This document shows, piece by piece, positions 42,346 to 55,713 of a stretch of 64,000 nucleotides of DNA. Source of the DNA: Sutcliffiella sp. FSL R7-0096 (GTDB lineage Bacteria > Bacillota > Bacilli > Bacillales > Bacillaceae_I); assembly GCF_038595065.1 (NCBI RefSeq), contig NZ_CP152003.1, forward strand, positions 4,816,001 through 4,880,000, in the 5' to 3' direction. The stretch's first letter is position 1, and every line of letters begins with the position of its first letter. The position numbers and the translations under genes are program-made. The notes under the pieces were generated by a model that worked only from the letters and a program-made list of their open reading frames with translations, did not search any database and had not been told where the DNA came from.

Positions 42346-42462
42346 TGTAAACGCTAGAATAAAGTTGACACTTTTTGCTTGATAGGATTTTACACTTTTG
42401 CTCAATCAACCTATTACTTTAGTAAAATAGTTTGTGACGTTATTTTACTGGAGGTTAGGATT

Positions 42463-44022
42463 TTGGAGGAGAAGTTAGTGTTATATATTAAGATTCATGA
42501 ATTACATAAAAGAAAGTTTAAAGTATCACAAATAGCTAAAGAGCTTAAGGTCTCAAGGCCAACTGTCTATAAGTATTTAGAAATGACATTCGATGAGGCT
42601 ACAGCTTATACTGAACAACCTTTAGGAAAGAAGAAAAAACTAGATCACTATAAGGACTGGATACTTGCCTGGCTAGAAGAGTACCCTCATCTAAGTAGTG
42701 CTCAGATCCATGATTGGCTTTTAGAGAGATACCCCGACCTCGTGGTCGGTGGAAGTACTGTAAGAACATATGTGAGGGGTATTCGAGAAGTCTACCAGAT
42801 TGAGAAAAAGGTGATTGTCCGTCAATACGAAGCAGTTCCTGAACAGCCTATGGGTAAACAACTCCAGGTAGATTGGGGAGAAACAAAACAGAAAACAGTA
42901 AACAACAAAGAAACCAAGCTGTACTTTATTGCCTTTGTACTCGCTAACTCTCGTTATAAATACATGGAATGGCAAGCACGCCCATTTACGACAAGAGATG
43001 CGATCCGTTGTCACGAAAATGCGTTTCAGTTTTATGGAGGGCGAACAGAAGAAATTGTCTACGATCAAGATCATTTAATCTCAGTGAGTGAAAATGCAGG
43101 ACAACTGCTTTTAACAGCTGAATTTCAAAGCTATGTTAATGAGCGTAAATTCAAAATATACCTGTGCAGAAGAGCAGATCCCGAATCTAAAGGTATGATT
43201 GAAAATGTAGTGAAATACATTAAAGGCAATTTTGCAGACAGTCGTGTATTTAATGACATTGAAGATTGGAATGAACGTGCACTACAATGGCTCAAGCGTA
43301 CTGGTAACCACCAGGTGCACCAGACAACGAAAAAAAGACCAGCAGAAGTGTTTCTCCTCGAAAAGCAACACTTACAGCCAGTCTCTTCGTTACTTTCATA
43401 TGAAAGCACCAATAATCAAAGTATAACAAGAAGTGTAAGCAAGGACAACACGATTCGCTACAAGTCAAACCGTTATTCCGTCCCACTCGGGACTTATCAA
43501 ACTATGAGTGAGAACCTTGTGTGGGTTGAAGCGAAGGTAGAAGATCACAAAACTCTTGTCATACGTAGAGAAGCAAATGGTGAAGTGATTGCCGAGCATG
43601 TCATCAGCTCGGAAAAGGGAAAACTTATTCAAAATCGTCACCATACCCGAGATCGCTCTAAAGGCATTAAGGAACTTAAGCAACGCCTCATTTCTCTCTT
43701 TGAAGAACAGCTTAAAGCAGCTGCATACTTGGATGAGGTTAGTCAAAGATACCCAAGGTATCAGCGAGATCAGTTTGCGATTATCTATAAAGTAATCCAG
43801 CAGTATCCGACCTTAGTTGATTCTGTTTTAACTAAGTGCATGACAGAGAAGCTTTACAATGCGAATGATTTTCGTGATATCGCTCATCATCTCGATACAT
43901 TACAAGTTGAACCGGCTGAAGAGGTACAATCCTTTTACACAAATTCGTTAAAACACTCTCATATCAAAGCATCTACGCGTTCTCTTAATGCTTATACCAG
44001 TATTTTAGGAGGTAGAGCATGA
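42463..44022 (+). CDS. istA: IS21-family transposase IstA
   Basis: About 519 aa from TTG 42463 (GGAGG upstream; a GTG at 42478 behind GGAGGAG is an equally good start). An N-terminal helix-turn-helix (KRKFKVSQIAKELKVSRPTV) is followed by an integrase core with the catalytic acids in VDWGETKQK, VYDQDHL and SKGMIENVVKYIK (D, D, E). It catalyses strand transfer of the element. It overlaps istB by 4 nt. No frameshift is seen. Confidence 0.95.
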   Translation: MEEKLVLYIKIHELHKRKFKVSQIAKELKVSRPTVYKYLEMTFDEATAYTEQPLGKKKKLDHYKDWILAWLEEYPHLSSAQIHDWLLERYPDLVVGGSTVRTYVRGIREVYQIEKKVIVRQYEAVPEQPMGKQLQVDWGETKQKTVNNKETKLYFIAFVLANSRYKYMEWQARPFTTRDAIRCHENAFQFYGGRTEEIVYDQDHLISVSENAGQLLLTAEFQSYVNERKFKIYLCRRADPESKGMIENVVKYIKGNFADSRVFNDIEDWNERALQWLKRTGNHQVHQTTKKRPAEVFLLEKQHLQPVSSLLSYESTNNQSITRSVSKDNTIRYKSNRYSVPLGTYQTMSENLVWVEAKVEDHKTLVIRREANGEVIAEHVISSEKGKLIQNRHHTRDRSKGIKELKQRLISLFEEQLKAAAYLDEVSQRYPRYQRDQFAIIYKVIQQYPTLVDSVLTKCMTEKLYNANDFRDIAHHLDTLQVEPAEEVQSFYTNSLKHSHIKASTRSLNAYTSILGGRA

Positions 44023-44786
44023 TGAACAAGACTGTACATGAACTACAAGATCAATTCCGTCAGCTACGATTGGCGGAGACTGCGGAGGAGCTTCCACTGC
44101 TTCTTCGCGAAGCTGAAAAAGCATCATGGACCTACTTGGAGTTTTTAGAGTCTATTACCCGACATGAATTAGCCAAACGTGAAGCGAAAAGCCTTGAAAA
44201 AAGAATGAAATGGGCACGCTTCCCTTTCGTGAAGTCATTAGATGAGTTTGAGCTGAAAGGACAAAACGTTCTGACGGCTCGACAGCTCTCCCAACTCCGT
44301 GAATTAAGCTGGCTGGAGCAACAATACAATTTAATTCTTCTTGGTCCCCCTGGCATTGGAAAAACATATATCGCAATTGGACTTGGACTCGAGGCTGTTT
44401 ATAGAGGGTTCAATGTTTATTTCGCCACAATGGGTGAACTTGTGCAGCTTTTAAAATCAGAAGAGTACTTGAACAAATCTAAAGTCCAATTAAAAAGAAT
44501 CAGAAATGCCGACCTAGTAATCATCGACGATTTAATGTATATGGCCATGGATCAGAGAGAAGCGAACCTATTTTTTCATTTGATTAATCATTTGTACGAA
44601 CGAAGTTCGATTATCCTGACATCAAATAAAAGTCCAGATGAATGGGGCAATTTAATAGGAGACCAAGGGATCACCACAGCTATTTTAGATCGTTTACTTC
44701 ATCGTGTGGAGGTCATCCATGGAGACGAAAAAGAGGAAAGTCATCGGATGAAAAATCGGAAGAGCATTTTTTCAGCAGAAATGTAA
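44019..44786 (+). CDS. istB: IS21-family helper ATPase IstB
   Basis: AAA+ ATPase of 255 aa: Walker A LLGPPGIGKTYIAIGLG and Walker B DLVIIDDLMYM, followed by the HLYERSSIILTSNKSPDEWG sensor region typical of IstB/DnaC-like proteins. It assists IstA in target selection. Ribosome-binding site AGGAGG precedes the ATG that overlaps the istA stop. Confidence 0.95.
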   Translation: MMNKTVHELQDQFRQLRLAETAEELPLLLREAEKASWTYLEFLESITRHELAKREAKSLEKRMKWARFPFVKSLDEFELKGQNVLTARQLSQLRELSWLEQQYNLILLGPPGIGKTYIAIGLGLEAVYRGFNVYFATMGELVQLLKSEEYLNKSKVQLKRIRNADLVIIDDLMYMAMDQREANLFFHLINHLYERSSIILTSNKSPDEWGNLIGDQGITTAILDRLLHRVEVIHGDEKEESHRMKNRKSIFSAEM

Positions 44787-45391: not shown

Positions 45392-45660
45392 TCTAAATCC
45401 CTCCATGCTTTTATGTAGTTGCAAGGAAGGATTTCTACATTTTACGCTCGATTCCTTTCGGGTTCCGAAAAATGATTAGATATGACTAAATCGCTAAATG
45501 AAGAAGTGGGAGTTAATAATCATATTTTTCTGACTAATTTATAGATAGACGTTCTAATGAACTATTTAGATATTCGAAACTTTCGGATTACTAATTTTTA
45601 TTGAAAATATCAGGTTTACTCTCAATGAGCATAATGGAGTAAACAATGAAAATATTAATT

Positions 45661-45704
45661 TAAAAACCACCTAAAACGCTATAATATCCACGTTCCAGGT
45701 GGTT
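45661..45704 (-). terminator. Presumed native rlmH terminator, displaced by the island
   Basis: On the minus strand, about 20 nt beyond the second copy of the rlmH 3' end (stop TAA at 45721-45723), stem AACCACCT / AGGTGGTT is followed by TTT. It is where the rlmH terminator should lie if the island were absent. Confidence 0.65.
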
Positions 45705-45724
45705 CCTTTTAAAACCTCATTTAC

Positions 45725-45738
45725 TTATGGTACGGTTC
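45725..45738. other. Left attachment repeat of the rlmH island (attL core)
   Basis: TTATGGTACGGTTC is identical to 55238-55251. On the minus strand the sequence around it codes for GEPYHK and a stop, the conserved C-terminus of RlmH, although no rlmH gene lies here. This is the signature of site-specific insertion into the 3' end of rlmH. Confidence 0.85.
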
Positions 45739-45758
45739 ACCGTGGTTATTTAAGAGGC

Positions 45759-45797
45759 AAAAAACAGACAGGAAAAATACTTTCCTGTCTGTTTTTT
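45759..45797. terminator. Strong bidirectional terminator inside the island
   Basis: AAAAAACAGACAGGAAA / TTTCCTGTCTGTTTTTT stem with a 4-base loop, usable in both directions. It probably ends the ABC-3C transcript. Confidence 0.85.
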
Positions 45798-45823
45798 AGG
45801 TCATATTTTTGTTCATAAAGTAA

Positions 45824-45868
45824 CACAATTTTGAGTCGTGCGCGTCTGCCAATTCCGCCCAAACACGC
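45824..45868 (-). pseudogene. 5' half of a tRNA-Leu(CAA) gene
   Basis: On the minus strand GGGCGGAATTGGCAGACGCG is the D-arm region typical of tRNA-Leu. It is followed by an anticodon arm with stem CACGA/TTGTG and loop CTCAAAA (anticodon CAA). The sequence then loses all tRNA character; no variable arm, T-arm or CCA is found. It is a truncated gene within the island. Confidence 0.7.
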
Positions 45869-46056
45869 TAGTAAAGGATTTTAGCCAATTATATCAATGC
45901 TTTTTGTGTTGTTGTCCATACGATTATTAAAGTACCCATAAATATTATATAACATTATTTAATAAATTTTAATAAATGAATCATGTATTTCTTAGCATTA
46001 AAACTATCTCTATACGTTTATACGGTTAAATCAATGTAAACATTTTTTATAAAATA

Positions 46057-47904
46057 TTAATCTTCATTAATTAAAGCATTTCCATATCTAAACTCTTCAA
46101 CTAAATGGAAGTTCTCCATTCCATCCCACACACTTGTTGGAATGTGCTCTAAAACAATAAATTGAAATTCCTCATTATACATTTTATTTACATGACTAAT
46201 AAAATCATTTAACAACTTCATCGCAGTGGTGATTTTTCCTTTATCACTTACTTCGACTTTACTCCAATTGTCCTCTTCCTCACCATAATAGGGTCTGCTA
46301 GGTTGGTCTAAAATCATAAATTGAGGAATATAAGGAGATTTCTGTATGATACTAGCCTCATGTAACCCTAAAAATAAACACAAATGCATAAATAGATGAT
46401 TAGAACTACTTCCCACATAAGAAGCATAAATTGAATTACTAGGTCTTAATGACAATGACTTATCCTTGAAGTTAAATAAAGCTCTATACCCTTCATAATT
46501 ACCTAATGCACTACCGACCTTATCTAAGTAATTTTGTATCAAAGACTCTAACATACTTTTAAAGGCTTCTCTGTCGATTTTTTCATCCCGCACTAAATTA
46601 TTTAGTCTCTTTAGCTCTTTTTCCTTCTCCTCAAGTTCTTCACTAAAGTCTTCATTTTCATCCCTTTTCTGATATAATGACAATTTATACTTTAGTTCCC
46701 CGAGGAATAAGAGTTTTTCTGTTTCGCTGCCTAATGAAAGATAATTTTCTTTTTGAGGATATTGTTCAAGTTTATTATTAATATGTGACAGTTTTTGTTC
46801 TAGTTTATTTAATTCATCACTGATGTTTAAGTTAAAAGGTTTCTTATTTTTCAACTGTTTTTTTATTGAATTAAACTCATCTTCTAATTGTTCTACCAGT
46901 GAGGACGTTTCTGGTAGTAACAATAGTTCACTAAAATTTTCTTTTACATATTTGATCGGCTTTAAGCTATCATAGTTATTTTTTTCAATTTCAAGGTAGG
47001 ATTTATATTGATTTTCTAGTTTTTTGAAGTTCCTAATTTTCCTTATTATTAAATTTTTCTCTTTAGTTAATTCATCAATTTCAGAAAAAGAATTAGATAT
47101 ATCATACACCTTTTGTTCATTACATAATTCTTGTAAGGTATTAAGGTAGTTTTCAGGTCCGATAAATTTATCATCGATTAAGTTTAATATTCTTGCTTGT
47201 TTTATGTCTTTTTTAATGTAAGACTCAAATAAATTTTCTTCTTTCTCGAATAAAGTTTGTTTCTTTTTTATTCTATTGATTTCTTTTTCAATTAAAACTA
47301 TTTTTTCTTTTAGTAATATATTTTCAATATCTTCAATTTTTAGGGCAATATCAAATATTCTTTCTAAAGCTTCTCTGTATCTAGTAATATTTTGCTTATC
47401 AAAATAAACTTCATTATTTGAAATAGTATTTCCAGATTGAGTATTAAATAATAAAAAATATCTAAATGATACCTTGTTTCCAGCCTTTATACTTTTACCA
47501 CTATATGGTATTACCAATTTGCTACTTATTGAAAATTCTGTTTGAATTATTTCCTTAAGTTCTTCTTCTGACATATTAGTATGAGGCTTTTCTGGTACCT
47601 TTCCTGATGAAGAGTAATAATAGTTAGAAGAGCCACGTCTGTTTATTATTTTTTCCCTAGCTATAGTAAAACACTTGTCATTAATGAAAAAAGTTAATCC
47701 ATACCATTCTACATTTTCATTAATTTTCTCTTCAGAAATTGCAGCATTACTTGAAAAAAAGCAATAATCAATAATTGACATAATCTCAGATTTGCCAGTG
47801 CCACTAGCACCCGTAATAACATTAACTTTATTTGGTTTAAATTTAATTTCTCTAATCCTATTCTTCTTCAACCATAATGTGACCGCTTCTATATAAAATT
47901 TCAT
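46057..47904 (-). CDS. ABC-three-component (ABC-3C) system ATPase (DUF3732-like)
   Basis: Protein of 615 aa. Walker A GASGTGKS (residues 32-39) comes after FKPNKVNVIT; a long coiled-coil middle (about residues 190-440, with Lys/Glu/Asn-rich heptads) separates it from the Walker B region QFMILDQPSRPYY near residue 520. The layout is that of SMC/Rad50-type ATPases of the DUF3732 group, which power ABC-3C conflict systems. Third gene of a three-gene operon, overlapping the middle component by 4 nt. An anti-invader role is inferred from the family and from the mobile context. Confidence 0.85.
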   Translation of the reverse strand: MKFYIEAVTLWLKKNRIREIKFKPNKVNVITGASGTGKSEIMSIIDYCFFSSNAAISEEKINENVEWYGLTFFINDKCFTIAREKIINRRGSSNYYYSSSGKVPEKPHTNMSEEELKEIIQTEFSISSKLVIPYSGKSIKAGNKVSFRYFLLFNTQSGNTISNNEVYFDKQNITRYREALERIFDIALKIEDIENILLKEKIVLIEKEINRIKKKQTLFEKEENLFESYIKKDIKQARILNLIDDKFIGPENYLNTLQELCNEQKVYDISNSFSEIDELTKEKNLIIRKIRNFKKLENQYKSYLEIEKNNYDSLKPIKYVKENFSELLLLPETSSLVEQLEDEFNSIKKQLKNKKPFNLNISDELNKLEQKLSHINNKLEQYPQKENYLSLGSETEKLLFLGELKYKLSLYQKRDENEDFSEELEEKEKELKRLNNLVRDEKIDREAFKSMLESLIQNYLDKVGSALGNYEGYRALFNFKDKSLSLRPSNSIYASYVGSSSNHLFMHLCLFLGLHEASIIQKSPYIPQFMILDQPSRPYYGEEEDNWSKVEVSDKGKITTAMKLLNDFISHVNKMYNEEFQFIVLEHIPTSVWDGMENFHLVEEFRYGNALINED

Positions 47905-48359
47905 AGTTCCACCCTTAATTGAAGATATAAATTTTTAGTATCTTCCATTAGTATTTGAGATAAGTTTTCAGCTCCAAGAATTATTTCTTTCGCTCTGTTT
48001 CCAAGACTTTTATTTTCTATTTCGAATACATTATCCTCTTTAAGTAATATTTCCCCATCTTTAATACTGATCAGTTTCATTCTATTCAAAAGAATAATTG
48101 AGTTTATTGATACAGGAAGAAGAGAGTAGAACCTTTCATTATAATTGGAAAAGTTTGATGGATACTTAATGATAAATTCTTCTAAACTTCTAACTTTTAT
48201 ATTCTTTCTTTTTAATACTTTTAAAGTATTATTATGTGAAAAAAACGGTAAAATCAGCATTGATTTCCCTATATTCATTTTTTTATGGTAATTAAGTACG
48301 GACAATATTGAAATAAGACCAATTAATTCGTTATTATAGATTGTTAGATTTTTATTCAT
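47901..48359 (-). CDS. ABC-3C system middle component
   Basis: About 152 aa from ATG 48359, with AGAGGT upstream; the longer open frame overlaps the previous gene too far. Small, helical, basic and AT-rich, no enzymatic motif. Its opening MNKNLTIYNNELIGLISILS and its position between the nuclease-like and ATPase genes are those of the ABC-3C middle component, thought to bridge effector and ATPase. It overlaps the upstream gene by 8 nt and the downstream one by 4 nt. Confidence 0.7.
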   Translation of the reverse strand: MNKNLTIYNNELIGLISILSVLNYHKKMNIGKSMLILPFFSHNNTLKVLKRKNIKVRSLEEFIIKYPSNFSNYNERFYSLLPVSINSIILLNRMKLISIKDGEILLKEDNVFEIENKSLGNRAKEIILGAENLSQILMEDTKNLYLQLRVEL

Positions 48360-49650
48360 TTTTATACCTCTTACCCCAATCGTATCTCCAACCAATCAAA
48401 GGCTTATCTGACAGTAAATAAAATTGACCATTGCTCATCTCTAGATCTAATTGTGTTTCATCAATGTTCAATTTCTTGCTTAAAATCTCATCTAAACATA
48501 GGTTTGCTAAACCAATTAATTCATTCTCATCGACATGTGTACCTTTTAATCTTAGTTTTCTTTTTAATTTTGAATAGGTACTATTAAATATAACTTCCCA
48601 TTCATATATCGATTCTTCATCGAACCTATCTTTCTCTAGGCTCATTATTTCTCCTTCTTGCTTCCACTGTTCTAGGTTATTGAAAGTCAGCAGTTTTGCT
48701 ATCGTTCTCTTTATAACCTGGTCTTTGTAGTCATCATCTTCTTCGGAGATAACTCCAATATCTTCTAGCTGTTTGATAAATAATTGCTCTTCGGGGTTCC
48801 CCTCAATTATAGGCTTATCTCTTCTTACTACCTTTTTATTTGTCTTTCCTAATAAAAAACACCTTGTATATTTCTCATATAAATCATCAAAACTGTATTC
48901 AATTCTTCCTCTTTGTTTAATAGTAATATAATTATCCCTTCTTATATTACTATCAAGACTGTTAAAAACATCGTCTATATTATTTTCTGGAATAAATTTT
49001 GCTTTAATTCTTAATCTAATTCTTCCAAATAAATCATCTTCATTAAGACTAAAACTAAGCTTTTCCAAGAAAACACTTAGCCATTCATCATTTTGATTTA
49101 ATAATTCCTTTATATAAAGTAAGACTTTATTTTCTCCCTTTTCATCATCCTTCTTATCCTCTTGTTTTTTTATTCCAGCTCTATACTTTTCTTTTAGGTA
49201 CTCTTTAAACTCTTCAATACTAAATACACCATCTTTAAACTTTCTATGATTAACTAAGAAATTATTTGTTGTATTATCAGCTTTATTAGAAATCAAAATA
49301 AAATTAGTCTTTTTTATAAATTCAAGTTGAGAATCTAAATCTTTTCTTTTTTCAACAGTATCATTTATAACTTTTATCCAGTTATAAATAGTCTTCCATA
49401 GGTCAACATCACTTTCTCTAAGGTTTATTATTTCATCCTGTGCATTAGTTTGTATGGAATGTTTTAATTGCATTAAGGTCTGGGTTCCATCTTGGTAGTC
49501 TATATGAATGTCATCCTTAATTTCCAATCCAATTGACTCGCCTGATTCTAAGCCCAGAATCAAATAAAGAAAATAGTAATATTGATATTCAAATCCAATA
49601 GACTTATCTTCCGCTGCTGTAATATCTTGATGTGACTTAACCTTTGTCAT
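48352..49650 (-). CDS. ABC-3C system effector with nuclease-like N-terminus
   Basis: Protein of 432 aa starting behind GGGGAT. The N-terminal region (about 10-70) has GFEYQYYYFLYLIL, KDDIHIDY and LMQLKHSIQ, a pattern like the restriction-endonuclease-fold (Cap4/DUF4297-like) domains found on conflict-system effectors, with candidate catalytic residues D, D and the Q-x-K motif. The C-terminal half is helical and unrecognised. First gene of the operon. In ABC-3C systems this subunit is proposed to be the effector that cuts or recognises invading nucleic acid; activity here is inferred. Confidence 0.75.
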   Translation of the reverse strand: MTKVKSHQDITAAEDKSIGFEYQYYYFLYLILGLESGESIGLEIKDDIHIDYQDGTQTLMQLKHSIQTNAQDEIINLRESDVDLWKTIYNWIKVINDTVEKRKDLDSQLEFIKKTNFILISNKADNTTNNFLVNHRKFKDGVFSIEEFKEYLKEKYRAGIKKQEDKKDDEKGENKVLLYIKELLNQNDEWLSVFLEKLSFSLNEDDLFGRIRLRIKAKFIPENNIDDVFNSLDSNIRRDNYITIKQRGRIEYSFDDLYEKYTRCFLLGKTNKKVVRRDKPIIEGNPEEQLFIKQLEDIGVISEEDDDYKDQVIKRTIAKLLTFNNLEQWKQEGEIMSLEKDRFDEESIYEWEVIFNSTYSKLKRKLRLKGTHVDENELIGLANLCLDEILSKKLNIDETQLDLEMSNGQFYLLSDKPLIGWRYDWGKRYKNE

Positions 49651-50139
49651 TTACTTATCCCCTTTTAGATTTGTATAAGAATATTGTAGGAGCATAATAC
49701 AAACAGCAAGCACTATACACTTAATTTTTAAAATTAGCAAACAGTAAAATTATACCATAATTCATCTAAATTCTACAAAAATTTCAATGATTCCAATAAT
49801 AATAACATTGGTTCCTTTATTCTTAATTAGATTAGTAATATAGGTTCGTAGAATTTTTGAATAGAATTTATGTATAGATGTACTACCTACTATAATAAAG
49901 GTAGGTGATATTTTTAAACCTGTTATCCCCCGTTTATTGTCCATTTCCTATTCTTATAACACAATAATCTATTAAATTAATTTCTAAATATTCTATAGTT
50001 GTAAATGTACACCTCTTAAGCTGACAAGATGTTCTACTTTCATAATATACTAGAAAACTCCTTCGAATCCATAAATTGTTAATTAATAGACGTAATTTAT
50101 GATACTATTATCTTAAAAAGAAACAATGAGGCCACAAGT
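49651..50139. other. AT-rich intergenic gap in the island
   Basis: Shared upstream region of the ABC-3C operon (leftward) and the GIY-YIG fragment (rightward). It contains a weak hairpin ACCTAC/GTAGGT at 49884-49906. A 60-codon minus-strand frame at 49762-49944 matches nothing I know and is not called. Confidence 0.5.
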
Positions 50140-50550
50140 ATGAGTGAATTAGTATTTGAAAAGAGAGATTTCAGACGAGATTCAAACTATAACCTTAAAA
50201 CGGTCCAACTAAATAATTATCCTATTGTCTATATTCTTTATAATGAGAAAAAAAGGCCATCCGCTTATATCGGACAAGCCGTTCAAGCTACAAGAAGGTT
50301 AAAGAATCATTTAGAAGATAATAGGCGCAAAGATTTGAAAACTCTACTCCATAATGCTTCACCGTTCATTACTTTACACCTCGACACGCTAGATTATTAC
50401 CATAATTATACATACCTTATACCCTTTTATCTATGTATATCTTCATATATTTGTATAAACAATAAACCCGCCAATCAGGTTATAGTCCCCTTGATTGGCG
50501 GGTCGGATCAATATCTTATATTTCAACGTCAAGCTCAATCCCGGACTTGA
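50140..50550 (+). pseudogene. Truncated GIY-YIG protein (N-terminus of a larger DUF2075-type gene)
   Basis: The first 75 or so residues are a GIY-YIG nuclease start: YPIVYILYNEKKRPSAYIGQ with the VYI and YIG elements, then RRLKNHLED. Known proteins with this opening continue for several hundred residues into a P-loop (DUF2075) domain. Here similarity ends near LLHN (about 50357) and the frame runs on through a hairpin into unrelated DNA. It is read as a 3'-truncated gene. If expressed it would make a 136-aa fragment. Confidence 0.65.
50467..50502 (-). terminator. Hairpin following the relic reading frame
   Basis: Stem CCCGCCAATCA / TGATTGGCGGG, 11 bp, with a T-rich tail on the minus strand. 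It fits as the terminator of the relic at 50518-50597. Confidence 0.7.
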
Positions 50551-50597
50551 ACTCTACAGTCACTTTATCACCATCAAGAGTTACCTTCTCATGTCAT
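50518..50597 (-). pseudogene. C-terminal relic of a lost minus-strand gene
   Basis: A minus-strand frame reads EKVTLDGDKVTVEFKSGI and then ELDVEI before a stop, and a terminator hairpin follows. The short beta-rich tail resembles the ends of some recombinases and other enzymes, but the piece is too short to assign. Upstream sequence to about 50700 has no open frame. Confidence 0.35.
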
Positions 50598-50738
50598 TTC
50601 AATGCGCAGTAAAAAGCTTAATACGAAAAAACGATCACCTAATAAGTGACCGCCTTCCTCATAAAATTGTTTGATTCCAAGTATATTTGTACTGTGCAGG
50701 AAAAAACTTTCATTTAACCCAAGGCCCTTTTTGGTGGT

Positions 50739-51056
50739 TTAGAGTAAAGGTATTGCTCTTTCTGTTTGGATAAAGTTTAAACTTTTTTCTTCCTGTTTAG
50801 TCAATAAAGTAATATCTAAAGTTATATTAAATTCATAAAAAAAAGTACAATACAAGTTCTTTCTCAAAAGAAGTATGTCTTGAATAGATATTTCGTCTTT
50901 ATTATAAACTATTATTAAATCAATATCATTGGGTGAATTAGAATAAAGTAAAGAACCAAAAAGATAAAAATCTAAATTAGAATAAAGAACGTTTTCCTTT
51001 TTTAAGTTGTTCACGCTGGAACGGAGTAAGGTAATTAAGGAATAGGTTTCCTTCAA
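50739..51056 (-). CDS. Minimal nucleotidyltransferase (MNT-like)
   Basis: Up to 105 aa. The nucleotidyltransferase core is plain: FGSLLYSNSPNDIDLIIVY contains GS and the DxD metal-binding pair. The true start is uncertain: TTG 51056 gives 105 aa, but a GTG at 51014 inside the overlap gives about 91 aa. It overlaps the 139-aa gene by 38-80 nt, so translation is coupled. MNT proteins often pair with HEPN toxins or act as effectors that add nucleotides to RNA or protein; no HEPN motif (RxxxxH) is evident in the neighbour. Confidence 0.75.
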   Translation of the reverse strand: MKETYSLITLLRSSVNNLKKENVLYSNLDFYLFGSLLYSNSPNDIDLIIVYNKDEISIQDILLLRKNLYCTFFYEFNITLDITLLTKQEEKSLNFIQTERAIPLL

Positions 51057-51396
51057 AATTTAAAGCCCCCATAAACTCATCAATGAGAAATAACCCAATT
51101 TTATTAGCTTTTGCAACTTCCTTTCCACTTACCGAGTAACTATTCCAAGTGCTGATGGTAACAATAGCATCAATATGATTATGACTTGACATTATTTCTA
51201 TAACTTCCGCTTCACTTACGGAATAAAAATTTGTCAAGTGAACCAAAACGTTTCTCCCGTTCGTTTTGGTAATCTTAAAGAGTTGTTTTTCGACTTGTTC
51301 AATTTTTCTTACTTTATTGTGGCTACCAATAGCATCTAAAAAATATTGGATACTTTCTGGTCTAGGTATTTTTTCGTATCTTCCTCCCTCAGGCAT
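50977..51396 (-). CDS. Unknown protein between metallophosphoesterase and MNT genes
   Basis: Protein of 139 aa starting behind a strong AAGGAGG site. No family recognised. It has an alpha/beta pattern with NVLVHLTNFYSVSEAEVIEI, IDAIVTISTWNSYSVSGKEV and NKIGLFLIDEFMGALN, suggesting alternating strands and helices as in nuclease or Rossmann-like folds; no catalytic triad is certain. It follows the metallophosphoesterase by 18 nt and overlaps the MNT gene, so the three act as one unit. Confidence 0.8.
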   Translation of the reverse strand: MPEGGRYEKIPRPESIQYFLDAIGSHNKVRKIEQVEKQLFKITKTNGRNVLVHLTNFYSVSEAEVIEIMSSHNHIDAIVTISTWNSYSVSGKEVAKANKIGLFLIDEFMGALNFEGNLFLNYLTPFQREQLKKGKRSLF

Positions 51397-51414
51397 AAAT
51401 ATCTTCCTCCTTAT

Positions 51415-52728
51415 TTATTCTAGAATTGTTAGTATTTCTTTGGGAAATGTAGGAACTTTAGAACTTTTATATTTAGATAAATGATTCATTTCAAACCCTT
51501 CTATATGATTCTTATATAAATTAAGAACAAATAATTTGTCCTCTGAAATTAATTCTTTATTACTTTGTAGTATTTCTAAAATTTTTTTATTATTTGGAAT
51601 AATATCAGTAATGCACTTTTCTTTCCACATATATGCAAACTCTGAAACTGGGGTATGCTGGGCTGTAATACTAAATGGTCCATATTGCTTAAAAATTCGT
51701 TCATTTTCTGAAAATAGTTCACTTAATTCTTTTTTTAGTTTATCTTTTTTACAATTTATTTCATCTTCTGATCTATTTTTATTATTTGAGAATTTTGGGA
51801 TGTGATACTCCAAAACGCCATTTTCCATTTTCCTACCTAACGTATTATTTAATGTCCAATATTCATGTTCACTGTTCCAAATATATTGGGAAATTTTCGC
51901 AACGCCATCCTCGATTAAAAAGTCTCCGAAACCTCCTAGAGAATATTCATCTGAGTGCACTCCAGCACTAACAATATTTAAGAGATTATTATATTGATTT
52001 GCTTCTATATTGTATGCTGCTCTATGTACATGACCAGAAAGGTATAAATCAATATTAAAATCATCAAATAAACTTTTAATTGCATTTTTATCACTATCAG
52101 CCATACATTCTAATGTATGGTGCCCAATGGCAATAGACAATTTATTATTATCTACTCCTAAATTAGATAAACAATCCAATAATTTATTCTTCCCAATAAG
52201 TAATGCCCCTTCTTCTCCAGCTCTATTTGCAATAAGACATGTATTTAAATGCACTATATTATAATTTTCTGTTTCAAGTAAAAAGTGAATATTATTTAAG
52301 GGGTATTCTTTTGTTAAAAAGTCAAAATAGAAGGTTGAAAAAGAATCGAAACTACTCAATATTTTAGACTTATTCTCCTCATCTTCAAGATATTCATCTA
52401 ATGTGTTTGAAGGGTTATTTGATTCAACGATTTCATTAATCAAATCAGTTCTATCACTATTTCGTCTGATGTCATGATTTCCAGGAATAATATATATTTG
52501 CTTTTTCGATAAATTAAGTATTCTAAAAATTTCTTCGAAAAATCTCATTTGATTTTCGTTAAAACCTTGTCCTTGATGGGAGAGATCTCCTGTTAAAATA
52601 ACAAAATTAAATGGGTTTACTTGATTTAACTCATTTATTTTTGTTAATAGCCTCATCCTCATTCTTCTAGATTGATAATTTTCAACTTGAAAGTGAATAT
52701 CAGAAATATGTAAAAAACGCAAAAGCAT
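51415..52728 (-). CDS. Calcineurin-like metallophosphoesterase with unknown C-terminal domain
   Basis: About 437 aa from ATG 52728 behind GAGGTG. All metallophosphoesterase motifs are present in order: SDIHF (D10, H12), LTGDLSH, PGNHDIRR, IGHHTLE and SGHVH. After about residue 285 a separate domain begins, with NERIFKQYGPFS, DIIPNN and LYKNHIEGFEMNH as its most conserved-looking parts; I recall similar tails on other bacterial conflict proteins but cannot name the family. First gene of the three-gene operon. Substrate (nucleotide, cyclic nucleotide, DNA or phosphoprotein) unknown. Confidence 0.85.
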   Translation of the reverse strand: MLLRFLHISDIHFQVENYQSRRMRMRLLTKINELNQVNPFNFVILTGDLSHQGQGFNENQMRFFEEIFRILNLSKKQIYIIPGNHDIRRNSDRTDLINEIVESNNPSNTLDEYLEDEENKSKILSSFDSFSTFYFDFLTKEYPLNNIHFLLETENYNIVHLNTCLIANRAGEEGALLIGKNKLLDCLSNLGVDNNKLSIAIGHHTLECMADSDKNAIKSLFDDFNIDLYLSGHVHRAAYNIEANQYNNLLNIVSAGVHSDEYSLGGFGDFLIEDGVAKISQYIWNSEHEYWTLNNTLGRKMENGVLEYHIPKFSNNKNRSEDEINCKKDKLKKELSELFSENERIFKQYGPFSITAQHTPVSEFAYMWKEKCITDIIPNNKKILEILQSNKELISEDKLFVLNLYKNHIEGFEMNHLSKYKSSKVPTFPKEILTILE

Positions 52729-53072
52729 TGTATAGCACCTCAAATATTTAACATAAATTCGAATAATCTATTATATACTCTGAATTATTATTAGTATTCT
52801 ACATCGCTTCCAATTTTTCCTTCTTCACTTTAACTGCTTCGTTATTTTGAGTGAAATCCTACACAAAGTCCATAGAATAAAGGAGGATTTTGCACATTAT
52901 TACGTCTACTGTGCAACAGATTACAAAAAAGAAGCGGGATATATCGAACCCACTTCAACCCCAAAATACCTCGATATAAACAACGAATTTGATTTAAACT
53001 TGAATATATTAAGAAAATTCATGTTATAGAAATCATCCAGAATTTTTATATTCCATCTATTTAATGTTATAT
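52729..53072. other. Degenerate AT-rich stretch in the island
   Basis: Contains a 60-codon plus-strand frame (52847-53029) including HYYVYCATDYKKEAGYIEPT that resembles a gene fragment but matches nothing I recognise, with no good ribosome-binding site. Otherwise nothing. Confidence 0.4.
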
Positions 53073-53216
53073 TTACTTCGTAAGCTGCCTAGTTCTTTCA
53101 GGGGTTAGAGTTAACATTACTCCTACATCCCTAAATTTCATAGGTTCATCACTGACCCCGTATATAGAATCTAAAATTAGTTGTTCTCTATCTGATAAAA
53201 CACTCTTATTTTCTTA
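53073..53216 (-). pseudogene. Relic of a sigma-factor region 4 domain
   Basis: A stop-to-stop minus-strand frame reads LSDREQLILDSIYGVSDEP and then KFRDVGVMLTLTPERTRQLT. This is the helix-turn-helix of sigma-70 region 4 (L..RE...L...YG...........G..L..T.ERxRQ). No start codon or upstream domains exist. The rest of the sigma-like gene has been lost. Confidence 0.6.
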
Positions 53217-53568
53217 ATGAACTTTTTATACTCTTGTGATTCTCTCTCCTTTATTATTTAATAATAGCGCTTTTTTTCATTTATCTTTTAATTTGTCCTT
53301 ATCTCTATATAGTAAAGAACATCTTCCTTAGTTATCATATAAAATTTCAACAACTCCTTTTTTCATACTAGTCAGTAAATCACTCTAAAACATAATTCGA
53401 CAACTAATGTTATATACCTCCAGAACTTGAAAAGCATGTGTTTTTATAACGTCTTCAGTTTTGTCATAACATTACCTTTAACCACTCATCTGTGTACTAA
53501 TAAATCCCTAGTTTAATTAGGTATTTTTCCCCTCCTTTAAGACCAATACTGTTATAAACGATAATGGA

Positions 53569-55293
53569 GTGGTTAATCTGAATGAAATAAAAAGCGTAGC
53601 AATATACGTTCGTGTCAGCACCGAAGAACAGGCAAGTGAAGGCTATAGCATTTCTGCACAATTGCAAACCCTTCGCCAATTTACTCATCTTTACGGCTGG
53701 CAGATCGCTGAAGAATACGTCGATGAAGGCATTAGTGGTAAAGATATAAAAGGCCGACCGGCATTGCAAAGAATGATATTGGATGTGGAGAAGGACAAAT
53801 TCCAAGCTGTATTGGTATGGAAGATATCACGTCTTTCAAGAAATATGTTAAATACTCTTGTGCTGCTAGATAAATTCGAAGAGTATGTTGTAAAGTTCAT
53901 TTCCTACTCTGAGAATTTTGATACATCCAGTCCTATAGGTAAACTGGTCGTACAATTGATGGCATCCATTGCCGAAATGGAGAGAAATACCCTTTCTGAA
54001 AATGTGAAGCTAGGAATGACTCAACGTGCTAAAGTAGGAAGCTGGAACGGCGGCGTGGTTTTCGGATTTGATTCTATAGAAAAAGAGCTTATCATTAATC
54101 CAAAAGAAGCAGAGATTGTTCAACTTATTTTTACTCTATATGCAGAAGGTAAAGGTCTCAAAGCCCTCGCTAATCACTTAAACAAAGAAGGATATCGGAC
54201 TAAACGTGGCAGACACTTCTCAATCAATGGTATTGCTACAATATTAGATAATCCTATCTATGTTGGTAAAATACGATGGTTACAAGTTGAGAACTGGGAT
54301 AAAAAGAGAAGGCGTGGAAAAAATACGAATCCCATTTTAGTTGAAGGGAAACACGAAGCAATTATCTCCGACGAACTTTGGAATATCGTTCATGCCCGTA
54401 GACAAAGTAAGTCATTTAAGCAGCGTCAGTCTAACGAACCTTTTCTCTTAAGCAGTATCCTTAGATGTCCTAACTGTGGTCAAGGCATGGTCCCATCTAT
54501 TACTATTTCTACTCGAAAAGATGGAACTAAACGAAAGCATCGCTATTATGTCTGTAGTGACTTCCACAACAAAGGATCATCAGCATGTAAAGCAAATTCA
54601 ATTAAAGCCTACTATGCAGAAGATGCTGTCATTAATCGTATAACAGACTTCTTAAACGATTCAGCTGGCTTTAGTAATACTATAGAGAATATTAATGAAG
54701 ACACGGTTCATACAAATGTGAAACTAAAAGAGCAGTTAGAGATGATTGAAGCAGAACTTAAAAAAGCCAATGCCATGCAAGAAAAATATATGGAAGCTTT
54801 TGAGCAAAATCTCTTCCCTGTATCCATACTACAGGAAAAGTTACACAAGTTAGCTAAATCGAAGAATGACTTAGTTCAAAAGAAAAATGAACTTAGCTTT
54901 CAACTAAGTTCATCCGACTCAAAAATTATTACACCTGACGTGGTTAGGCATTTATTAGAAATGTATGTACAAGTATTTCAACAGTCTTCGAGAGAAAAGA
55001 AAAAGCAGCTTTTTCAACTTTTAATAAATAAGATAACGATAATACAAGCTGACGGTCGCTCTCGAACGGTGGATAATATCGAACTCGATTTTGATTTTTC
55101 AGAAGTCAATCTGTCCAAAACATTTACACTTATTCACATCTTGTATCTTGAATCAGATCATTCAGAGCAAAATTCCTCTTCAAAACCTGATTCAAAAGAC
55201 AAAATGCCATCTTATCTTCAGTTTTTTTTGCCTCTATTTATGGTACGGTTCCCCCCGATTAATCCGAAAACCCCGATAAACCTGCTCCAATAG
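53569..55293 (+). CDS. Large serine recombinase (integrase of the rlmH island)
   Basis: Protein of 574 aa from GTG 53569. The resolvase domain starts [20 protein letters not shown] with the catalytic Ser in VRVST and includes [14 protein letters not shown]. The recombinase domain has [20 protein letters not shown] and [12 protein letters not shown] zinc ribbon follows with [10 protein letters not shown] and YYVCSD, then a coiled coil (about residues 385-450) and a C-terminal tail. The class catalyses attP x attB integration and includes staphylococcal Ccr proteins. The last 60 nt overlap rlmH; the final 13 or so residues are coded by host DNA. Confidence 0.93.
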
Positions 55294-55713
55294 TATCAAC
55301 TTCATCAACTGATGCGGAAACGTCATCCTAGAAAAAGACAACGTATCATTCGCCCTCTTCATCACGTCCCCGCTCAACCCAAGCGATCCCCCAATCACAA
55401 ACGCTACCTTACTCTTCCCATAAGTAGCCAGCTTGTCCATTTCCCTCGCCAATTCTTCAGATGAACGTTGCTTCCCTTCAATCGCCAAAGCAATCACATG
55501 GGTATCATCAGAAATCTTCCCTAGTATCCGTTCGCCTTCTTTATTTTTCACTTGTTCCATTTCGGCTTCGCTTAATTGTTCTGGGGCTTTTTCGTCTGGG
55601 AGCTCAATGATGTCTATTTTTGCGTAGGCACTCAAACGTTTCAAATACTCATTTATTCCTTGTTTCAGATACTTCTCTTTTAGTTTTCCTATTGTGATTA
55701 TTGAGATATTCAC
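55234..55713 (-). CDS. rlmH: 23S rRNA (pseudouridine1915-N3)-methyltransferase
   Basis: Protein of 159 aa, the standard RlmH length. Begins [20 protein letters not shown]; the SAM-binding knot of the SPOUT fold shows as [15 protein letters not shown] and the C-terminus is [11 protein letters not shown]. It methylates the pseudouridine at 1915 in helix 69 of 23S rRNA on the assembled ribosome. The island is inserted at its last codons; the element supplies an AAA TAG end in place of the native AAG TAA, so the protein is unchanged. This is the Bacillus yydA locus. Confidence 0.96.
55238..55251. other. Right attachment repeat of the rlmH island (attR core)
   Basis: TTATGGTACGGTTC, identical to 45725-45738, codes on the minus strand for the EPYHK end of RlmH and on the plus strand for the MVRF stretch near the recombinase C-terminus. 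Confidence 0.85.

Follow-up and report, generated by a model that had tools for sequence, protein, structure and literature searches.

Islands at the 3' end of rlmH

Staphylococcal cassette chromosome (SCC) elements, which made methicillin-resistant Staphylococcus aureus (MRSA), use the same target gene, rlmH, as the subject of this study, an island in Sutcliffiella sp. FSL R7-0096 that we analyzed within a window of 64 kb (positions 4816001–4880000 of the 4.9 Mb single-contig genome; all coordinates below refer to this window). A second point of comparison is the integration-dependent immunity of mycobacteriophages, where attP, the attachment site of the element, lies within a coding sequence and integration alters the C-terminus of the repressor. 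Islands at rlmH outside staphylococci are known in print (PMC10061031, PMC6222049). According to the first of these, SCCs always encode a helicase in the recombinase core locus; the same source describes islands downstream of rlmH in Bacillota that carry PolA-SSB primases, one or two large serine recombinases and conflict genes, form composites, and have a second end recognized by the last ~12 bp of rlmH (PMC10061031). The Enterococcus cassette chromosome (ECC) also targets rlmH with large serine recombinases, encoded by a ccrAB operon, and has variable cargo and demonstrated transfer (PMC6222049).

A 9.5 kb island and its empty site

The 14-bp sequence TTATGGTACGGTTC occurs in two exact copies on the same strand of the window, at 45725–45738 and 55238–55251, and all seven remaining matches carry three mismatches each, which bears out the direct repeats that a previous sequence-only reading of this DNA had placed at both ends of an insertion. 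At the right copy, the attR core, the open reading frame (ORF) of a large serine recombinase (53569–55293, + strand, 574 amino acids) adjoins an intact rlmH (55234–55713, − strand; Pfam SPOUT_MTase, 202 bits), again as that reading had it. The assignment of the recombinase comes from Pfam, NCBIfam and a tree, and its Pfam domains, Resolvase, Recombinase and Zn-ribbon, follow each other in the order characteristic of large serine recombinases. With its insertion at the 3' end of rlmH and its end repeats, the locus has one of the features by which SCC membership is judged. We consider the segment 45738–55251 (9.5 kb) to be very probably a site-specific integrative island, whose own large serine recombinase inserted it at the 3' terminus of rlmH, and we infer that it can still excise. 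Its ends, the empty-site counterpart in a congener, the attP dyad, the frozen att arm and the families of recombinase and cargo can all be read from the DNA itself.

The attL core (45725–45738, + strand) reads, in the direction of rlmH, GAACCGTACCATAAGTAA followed by a hairpin; this copy has CAT AAG TAA, and the copy that now ends rlmH has CAT AAA TAG. Because the sequence following rlmH in the congener G011 (G and L numbers denote our genomes and loci) matches the left flank, the left copy is the former end of the host gene, and the one on the right (AAA TAG) is element-borne, as are the last codons and stop of the present rlmH. The sequence-only reading had regarded the left copy as the extra one, and here the origins have to be reversed, with the original host end on the left and the element-supplied end on the right.

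Directly after its rlmH, G011 matches window positions 45645–45710 (83% of 66 nt). A second match, to 45427–45618 (87.5% of 192 nt), follows after 6.15 kb, immediately before the M14 gene, and the intervening stretch looks like a separate insertion. This comparison is at the level of congeners, with one genome per species. The expectation that in a relative lacking the island rlmH would be followed by the terminator and then by the M14 gene held for the first part, as rlmH of G011 runs into the matching terminator, and for the second only if the 6.15 kb insertion is discounted. The original rlmH terminator (45661–45704, − strand), now displaced beyond the far side of the element and outside it, folds well in both genomes, and its identification is supported by the folding and by the G011 match, although a simple consensus terminator scan did not list it. 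Also outside the island, an IS21-type istA/istB pair (42379–44786) splits the M14 peptidase gene.

An att arm with three readings

When the ends of the element are joined, they form a 54-bp attP, TTTTTTGCCTCT-ATTTATGGTACGGTTCACCGTGGTTATTTA-AGAGGCAAAAAA, symmetrical at 34 of 54 positions; the 12-bp arms TTTTTTGCCTCT and AGAGGCAAAAAA are perfectly inverted (12/12), the centre scores 5/5, and the inner part is the perfect inverted repeat ACGGT-TC-ACCGT. The right half of attP, which is part of attR (55224–55251, + strand), consists of the arm TTTTTTGCCTCT (55224–55235) followed by ATTTATGGTACGGTTC, and encodes the integrase residues FLPLFMVRF together with the antisense PYHK-stop of RlmH. The left half, ACCGTGGTTATTTA plus AGAGGCAAAAAA (45739–45764, + strand), holds the stop codon at which the integrase would terminate once the element had excised as a circle. 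Single-base changes aside, the 24 named clade I elements that were listed all have the same right arm, and the left arm is common to the five left ends located (window, L026, L033, L104 and L111). The two repeats of L104 differ at the ninth base which, if the difference is old, places the exchange within GGTTC; most likely it takes place there at the central TC (45737–45738; GA on the rlmH strand), which we infer to be the exact crossover pair.

For a serine recombinase, a matching central dinucleotide suffices. Since nothing beyond it is required, the other 12 bp of the repeat are best read not as an enzyme requirement but as mimicry, the right arm of attP imitating the rlmH end. Such mimicry fits the function of the target, because in E. 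coli RlmH the terminal residues Y152, H153 and R154 are each essential for catalysis (PMC5430550) and the window RlmH retains PYHK. The attP of the circle would recombine at the rlmH codon for Glu of EPYHK, and integration would restore RlmH with a catalytic PYHK tail taken from the right arm. Judged by these comparisons, the right arm is triple-coded: it is the putative recombinase site, the C-terminus of the integrase, and the antisense PYHK-stop that would repair RlmH. The length of the repeat, in excess of what a serine recombinase needs, would thereby be explained as a repair patch for the target gene.

The integrase ORF extends 42 bases beyond the right repeat into rlmH on the opposite strand, and the frame is open through the crossover in all 39 distinct clade I homologues (54–100% identical, at least 500 amino acids). 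This set derives from 49 homologues kept after exclusion of ORFs shorter than 500 amino acids or below 54% identity; broken copies, for example those of G001, G014, G157, G071 and G080, fall outside the 39, and ORFs shorter than 400 amino acids were dropped from the recombinase comparison. Among the 39, synonymous differences per site amount to 0.014 in codons 553–557, the att arm, compared to 0.74 in codons 161–510, and codons 553–557 show zero amino-acid changes. Because synonymous differences are near zero, it is the DNA of the att arm itself that is frozen. The motif PxYLQ directly before the arm is conserved while its leucine codon varies, implying that the protein is constrained too, and linker codons 531–546 are near neutral, with a ratio of nonsynonymous to synonymous differences (pN/pS) of 0.9.

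Beyond the crossover, the tail of the integrase depends on the neighboring DNA: it is rlmH-derived where the element adjoins rlmH and differs in L042, L046, L047, L101, L103 and L153, which have no rlmH in the flanks examined. In the integrated state of the window element the protein ends in residues read from the opposite strand of rlmH, and in the free circle its tail would be FTVVI-stop, after which comes a hairpin with a U-run just inside the left end (45759–45797, + strand; folding z −5.8; absent from the consensus-scan list). The predicted circle tail is FTVVI-stop at four of the five left ends and FTVSI-stop at the fifth; the search pattern for the left arm includes the letters of the stop, and searches with the core alone recovered the same five ends. 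A hairpin follows four of the five left ends, and in two of these (window and L026) a clear U-run comes next.

Related recombinases cross the site in other ways. Four ORFs of a neighboring lineage end in or pass TYGTV, in another frame, and in L024 and L047 the integrase crosses the site in the sense orientation, so that such crossing may have evolved on more than one occasion. Altogether 56 ORFs contain an internal core; those of L133 and L167 and the 514-aa ORF of L036 probably fit the loose search pattern by chance. In the open-licence literature of PubMed Central (PMC), supplements excluded, we found no report of a serine integrase ORF crossing att, and the triple-coded arm together with an integrase reading through its own crossover is apparently unreported. 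In the way it would work, the arrangement resembles the mycobacteriophage immunity system, with attP inside a coding sequence and integration changing the C-terminus of a protein; the altered protein is, in contrast, a serine integrase.

The near-neutral linker codons contain an inverted repeat (55148–55195, − strand, with arms at 55148–55156 and 55187–55195). Over the 39 homologues its mean folding z is −2.56 compared to −0.94 for a control stretch (p 4e-4, kinship ignored), 90.6% of 266 cells are paired, and 33 compensatory double changes are found versus 13.5 in shuffles; on the rlmH strand there are 26 G-U cells versus 11 A-C. A function of this hairpin as a terminator was rejected, as no U-run follows it on either strand.

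A sister lineage that replaces rlmH

The Tyr-His pair is missing from five (L121, L124, L126, L127 and L149) of the 61 loci in which the host rlmH is complete, and of the 61 only the first four of these have a second complete rlmH in the examined stretch; L149 (PYRR) has an altered host end and no second rlmH in the flank examined. In the sister lineage (L121, L124, L126, L127 and L180–L183) the His-Lys end of host RlmH is replaced, and the altered ends are PYLV, AYIF, PYIF and PYIFQG. In all seven distinct elements of this lineage the match to host rlmH stops at residue 157 and is accompanied by an element copy ending EPYHK, and the element copies are 81–94% like that of L121 and 54–63% like host rlmH. 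Two rlmH matches at 1e-25 occur in 5 of 397 genomes, namely G001 (where one is a fragment), G088, G173, G198 and G389; the latter four show the same host-plus-element arrangement, the element of G173 being that of L121. The native rlmH of G088 also has a premature stop, as expected if the element copy has taken over.

These comparisons indicate that the sister-lineage element removes the catalytic end from the host RlmH and brings an rlmH of its own. The lineage thereby offers a clear-cut and testable example of a conserved host enzyme being exchanged by a mobile element. It may even be that the host is made dependent on the element through a disabled rRNA methyltransferase and an element-supplied copy. 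Two rlmH alleles have also been seen in ECC hosts (PMC6222049). In the same literature as above no report was found of an element-borne rlmH replacing a damaged one, and the rlmH-replacing lineage is apparently unreported.

Relationship to the SCC recombinases and distribution at rlmH

Scored against the curated NCBIfam models, the window recombinase reaches 396 bits for CcrB (cut-off 900), 329 for CcrC (900) and 137 for CcrA (700), so that its best curated match, CcrB, stays below the cut-off. The phylogeny against CcrA, CcrB and CcrC that the sequence-only reading had called for was obtained from a quick search with 77 hand-picked rows. The window clade and staphylococcal CcrB form separate clades, each with a support of 100, inside a 59-row group that unites them with modest support (SH-aLRT, the Shimodaira–Hasegawa-like approximate likelihood ratio test, 85), and CcrA is far off. 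The proposed distant kinship with SCC is in line with both the best match and the shared clade, and the tree and family scores support the integrase as a distant relative of the SCC recombinases, at a support value, 85, that is not strong. By this placement CcrB would fall within a broad group of recombinases from ordinary Bacilli which cluster at rlmH and carry anti-phage systems, and this suggests that the staphylococcal cassettes descend from defence islands.

Several relatives (L102, L104, L105, L107, L108, L111, L163 and others) have a second large serine recombinase in tandem just upstream of int, the integrase gene; the closest relatives of the window element have none adjoining int. 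An identification of the upstream protein as CcrA was rejected, since it scores ~170–210 bits against the window integrase versus ~69–93 against CcrA and forms its own group in the tree. An origin of the window integrase from phages or plasmids was likewise rejected, its best phage relatives being 30–31% identical and its plasmid relatives, including staphylococcal CcrB-type genes, 30–41%.

CcrB-like matches at 1e-90 or better occur in 42 of 398 genomes of the class. From a total of 47 matches, 33 are on the same contig as a located rlmH, nine are not, and five were outside the look-up; of the 33, which include the window's own, 30 lie at most 30 kb from rlmH, that of G447 is 147 kb away, and G623 and G670 each have one at a distance of more than 2 Mb. 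A homologue at 1e-70 or better is present in 59 of the 397 genomes sampled from the order, and in 24 of 28 fetched loci rlmH is found within the 1.5 kb flanks. Reading up to 20 kb downstream of rlmH, a second copy of the genome's own rlmH end was detected at 0–1 mismatch in five of the genus's 16 genomes, counting that of the window, and in 7 of 16 at up to two mismatches. The second ends in the genus and the clustering of CcrB-like recombinases near rlmH bear out the suggestion that rlmH is a general hotspot for serine integrases. The 12 most distant named relatives (L164–L175) have no rlmH in the flanks examined, and the rlmH specificity may be older than CcrB, as the tree suggests with moderate support.

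Other element types are present at the same rlmH end in the Sutcliffiella congeners L024, L030, L031 and L037, with the arm TGGTAAA; in L024 the integrase is located at the distal end and terminates inside the att core. G001 (L004, L038) contains a broken copy of the window's element beside a 75-residue rlmH fragment, with the native rlmH elsewhere on the same contig; apparently this element took part of its target along when it moved.

Alternative explanations

The notion that the locus is a true SCC element, which as a member of the staphylococcal cassette family has found its way into Bacillaceae, appears highly improbable. It would account for the common target codons (the EPYHK/EAYHK end of rlmH), for a large serine recombinase of the same class whose best curated family is CcrB, for the end repeats and variable cargo, and for the composite arrays of relatives such as G022, where the integrase occupies an internal att core and is 17.6 kb away from rlmH. 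However, the recombinase scores below the CcrB, CcrC and CcrA cut-offs, and staphylococcal CcrB forms its own clade outside that of the window; the recombinase is single, with no second one adjacent, and its ORF, which crosses att, is at the very end of the element, whereas CcrB in staphylococcal genomes is 4–13 kb from rlmH; and no helicase family was detected among the eight non-rlmH ORFs scanned with Pfam (shorter ORFs were outside the scan). Membership in SCC or ECC was rejected on family cut-offs and anatomy. ECC shares the target gene, large serine recombinases and variable cargo, but has a ccrAB pair in an operon and demonstrated transfer, compared to one recombinase in the window element (PMC6222049). 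The PolA-SSB islands resemble it in their position after rlmH in Bacillota, the large serine recombinase, the rlmH-end second boundary, composites and conflict genes, but were selected for primase and helicase (PMC10061031); a Pfam scan of the window ORFs found no PolA-SSB pair or helicase families beside the recombinase. The available part of that report mentions no att-crossing recombinase ORF, and a term search of it found no second rlmH. An explanation dispensing with a mobile element, in which a local duplication produced the second rlmH end, has next to no probability: the shortness of the repeats would suit it, but a recombinase abuts the repeat, the arms are common to many genera and an empty-site counterpart exists, which already refutes it. 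Several observations weigh against the integrative island that we favor: the G011 flank match is interrupted by the 6.15 kb insertion, several genes of the element resemble fragments, the LmuC match is weak (28 bits) and the LmuA CTD7 domain is below cut-off, the left end was located in five clade I elements, that of most named loci lying beyond the 10 kb examined, and sequence analysis did not reveal an excised circle, transfer or a directionality factor.

What the exchange of the integrase tail does, given such an island, can be seen in two ways. We think it probable that the overlap is passive, int lying beside attP because this is compact, with an arm that happens to be stop-free and extra residues that are inert. 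The near-neutral linker, the tails that vary with the neighbor, and a folded-domain homology to CcrB that ends near residue 496 all fit this account; less easily reconciled with it are a frame open over ~30 codons in all 39 homologues, the constraint on PxYLQ and the recurrence of crossing in other frames. It is rather unlikely, in our estimate, that the swap of tail and terminator is functional, such that the circle makes a terminated int mRNA and the integrated element a host-tailed protein and a transcript colliding with that of rlmH, turning the enzyme off or changing its direction. The open frame in 39 of 39 homologues, the crossings in a second frame (TYGTV, four ORFs) and in the sense orientation (L024, L047), FTV[VS]I-stop at five of five left ends, the hairpin at four of five, and PxYLQ preserved with varied codons would be expected from it. 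On the other side, the stop is partly given by construction, as the left-arm pattern contains its letters (with the ends also found core-only), a clear U-run follows just two of the four hairpins (window and L026), linker codons 531–546 are almost neutral, the host-coded tails vary in length and sequence, and CcrB and the Paenibacillus group have no overlap. A wider proposal, which we put forward as doubtful, is that the rlmH islands of the clade use att as a genetic switch plate: a 28-bp arm would serve as recombinase site, integrase C-terminus and RlmH patch, integration would rewrite the integrase tail together with the 3' end of its message and lock the element in, and the sister lineage would disable the host rRNA methyltransferase and supply its own, leading to host dependence.

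Cargo and neighboring genes

The genes at the left of the island form a Lamassu (ABC-three-component, ABC-3C) operon on the − strand. LmuA, LmuC and LmuB occur together in the lmuA-lmuC-lmuB order and families of such systems: lmuA (48352–49650; PADLOC LmuA 132 bits, CTD7 below cut-off) codes for the effector, lmuC (47901–48395; Pfam MC3 37 bits, PADLOC LmuC 28 bits) for the middle component, and lmuB (46057–47904; PADLOC LmuB 272 bits, Pfam DUF3732) for an SMC/ABC-type ATPase. These PADLOC matches agree with the defence-like cargo that the sequence-only reading had proposed. Next to the operon are a GIY-YIG domain fragment, probably decayed (50140–50550, + strand; Pfam just below cut-off), a nucleotidyltransferase-like small protein (50739–51056, − strand; Pfam Polbeta below cut-off, weak PADLOC PDC-M63A) and, upstream of it, a small protein (50977–51396, − strand) with no match in Pfam, PADLOC, NCBIfam or PHROGs. 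A calcineurin-like phosphoesterase (51415–52743, − strand; Pfam Metallophos 70 bits, PADLOC Effector 243 bits) is a candidate defence effector. The defence genes are presumably working, and the host would gain protection against phages from the Lamassu operon and the phosphoesterase module. Between the phosphoesterase and int there is no ORF of at least 80 amino acids on either strand, except for one antisense to the start of int.

The cargo was tallied for 16 named loci among those found for clade I, and its 85 ORFs match 236 PADLOC families at 1e-10, among them BREX and type I restriction-modification; on the far side of rlmH in the same loci, 116 ORFs match 11, the counts being of families and not of ORFs. 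About 19 cargo ORFs of these loci carry a resolvase domain. One locus, L106, titled Pseudomonas sp. ISL-84, has a Bacillaceae-like rlmH and integrase, and its label looks wrong.

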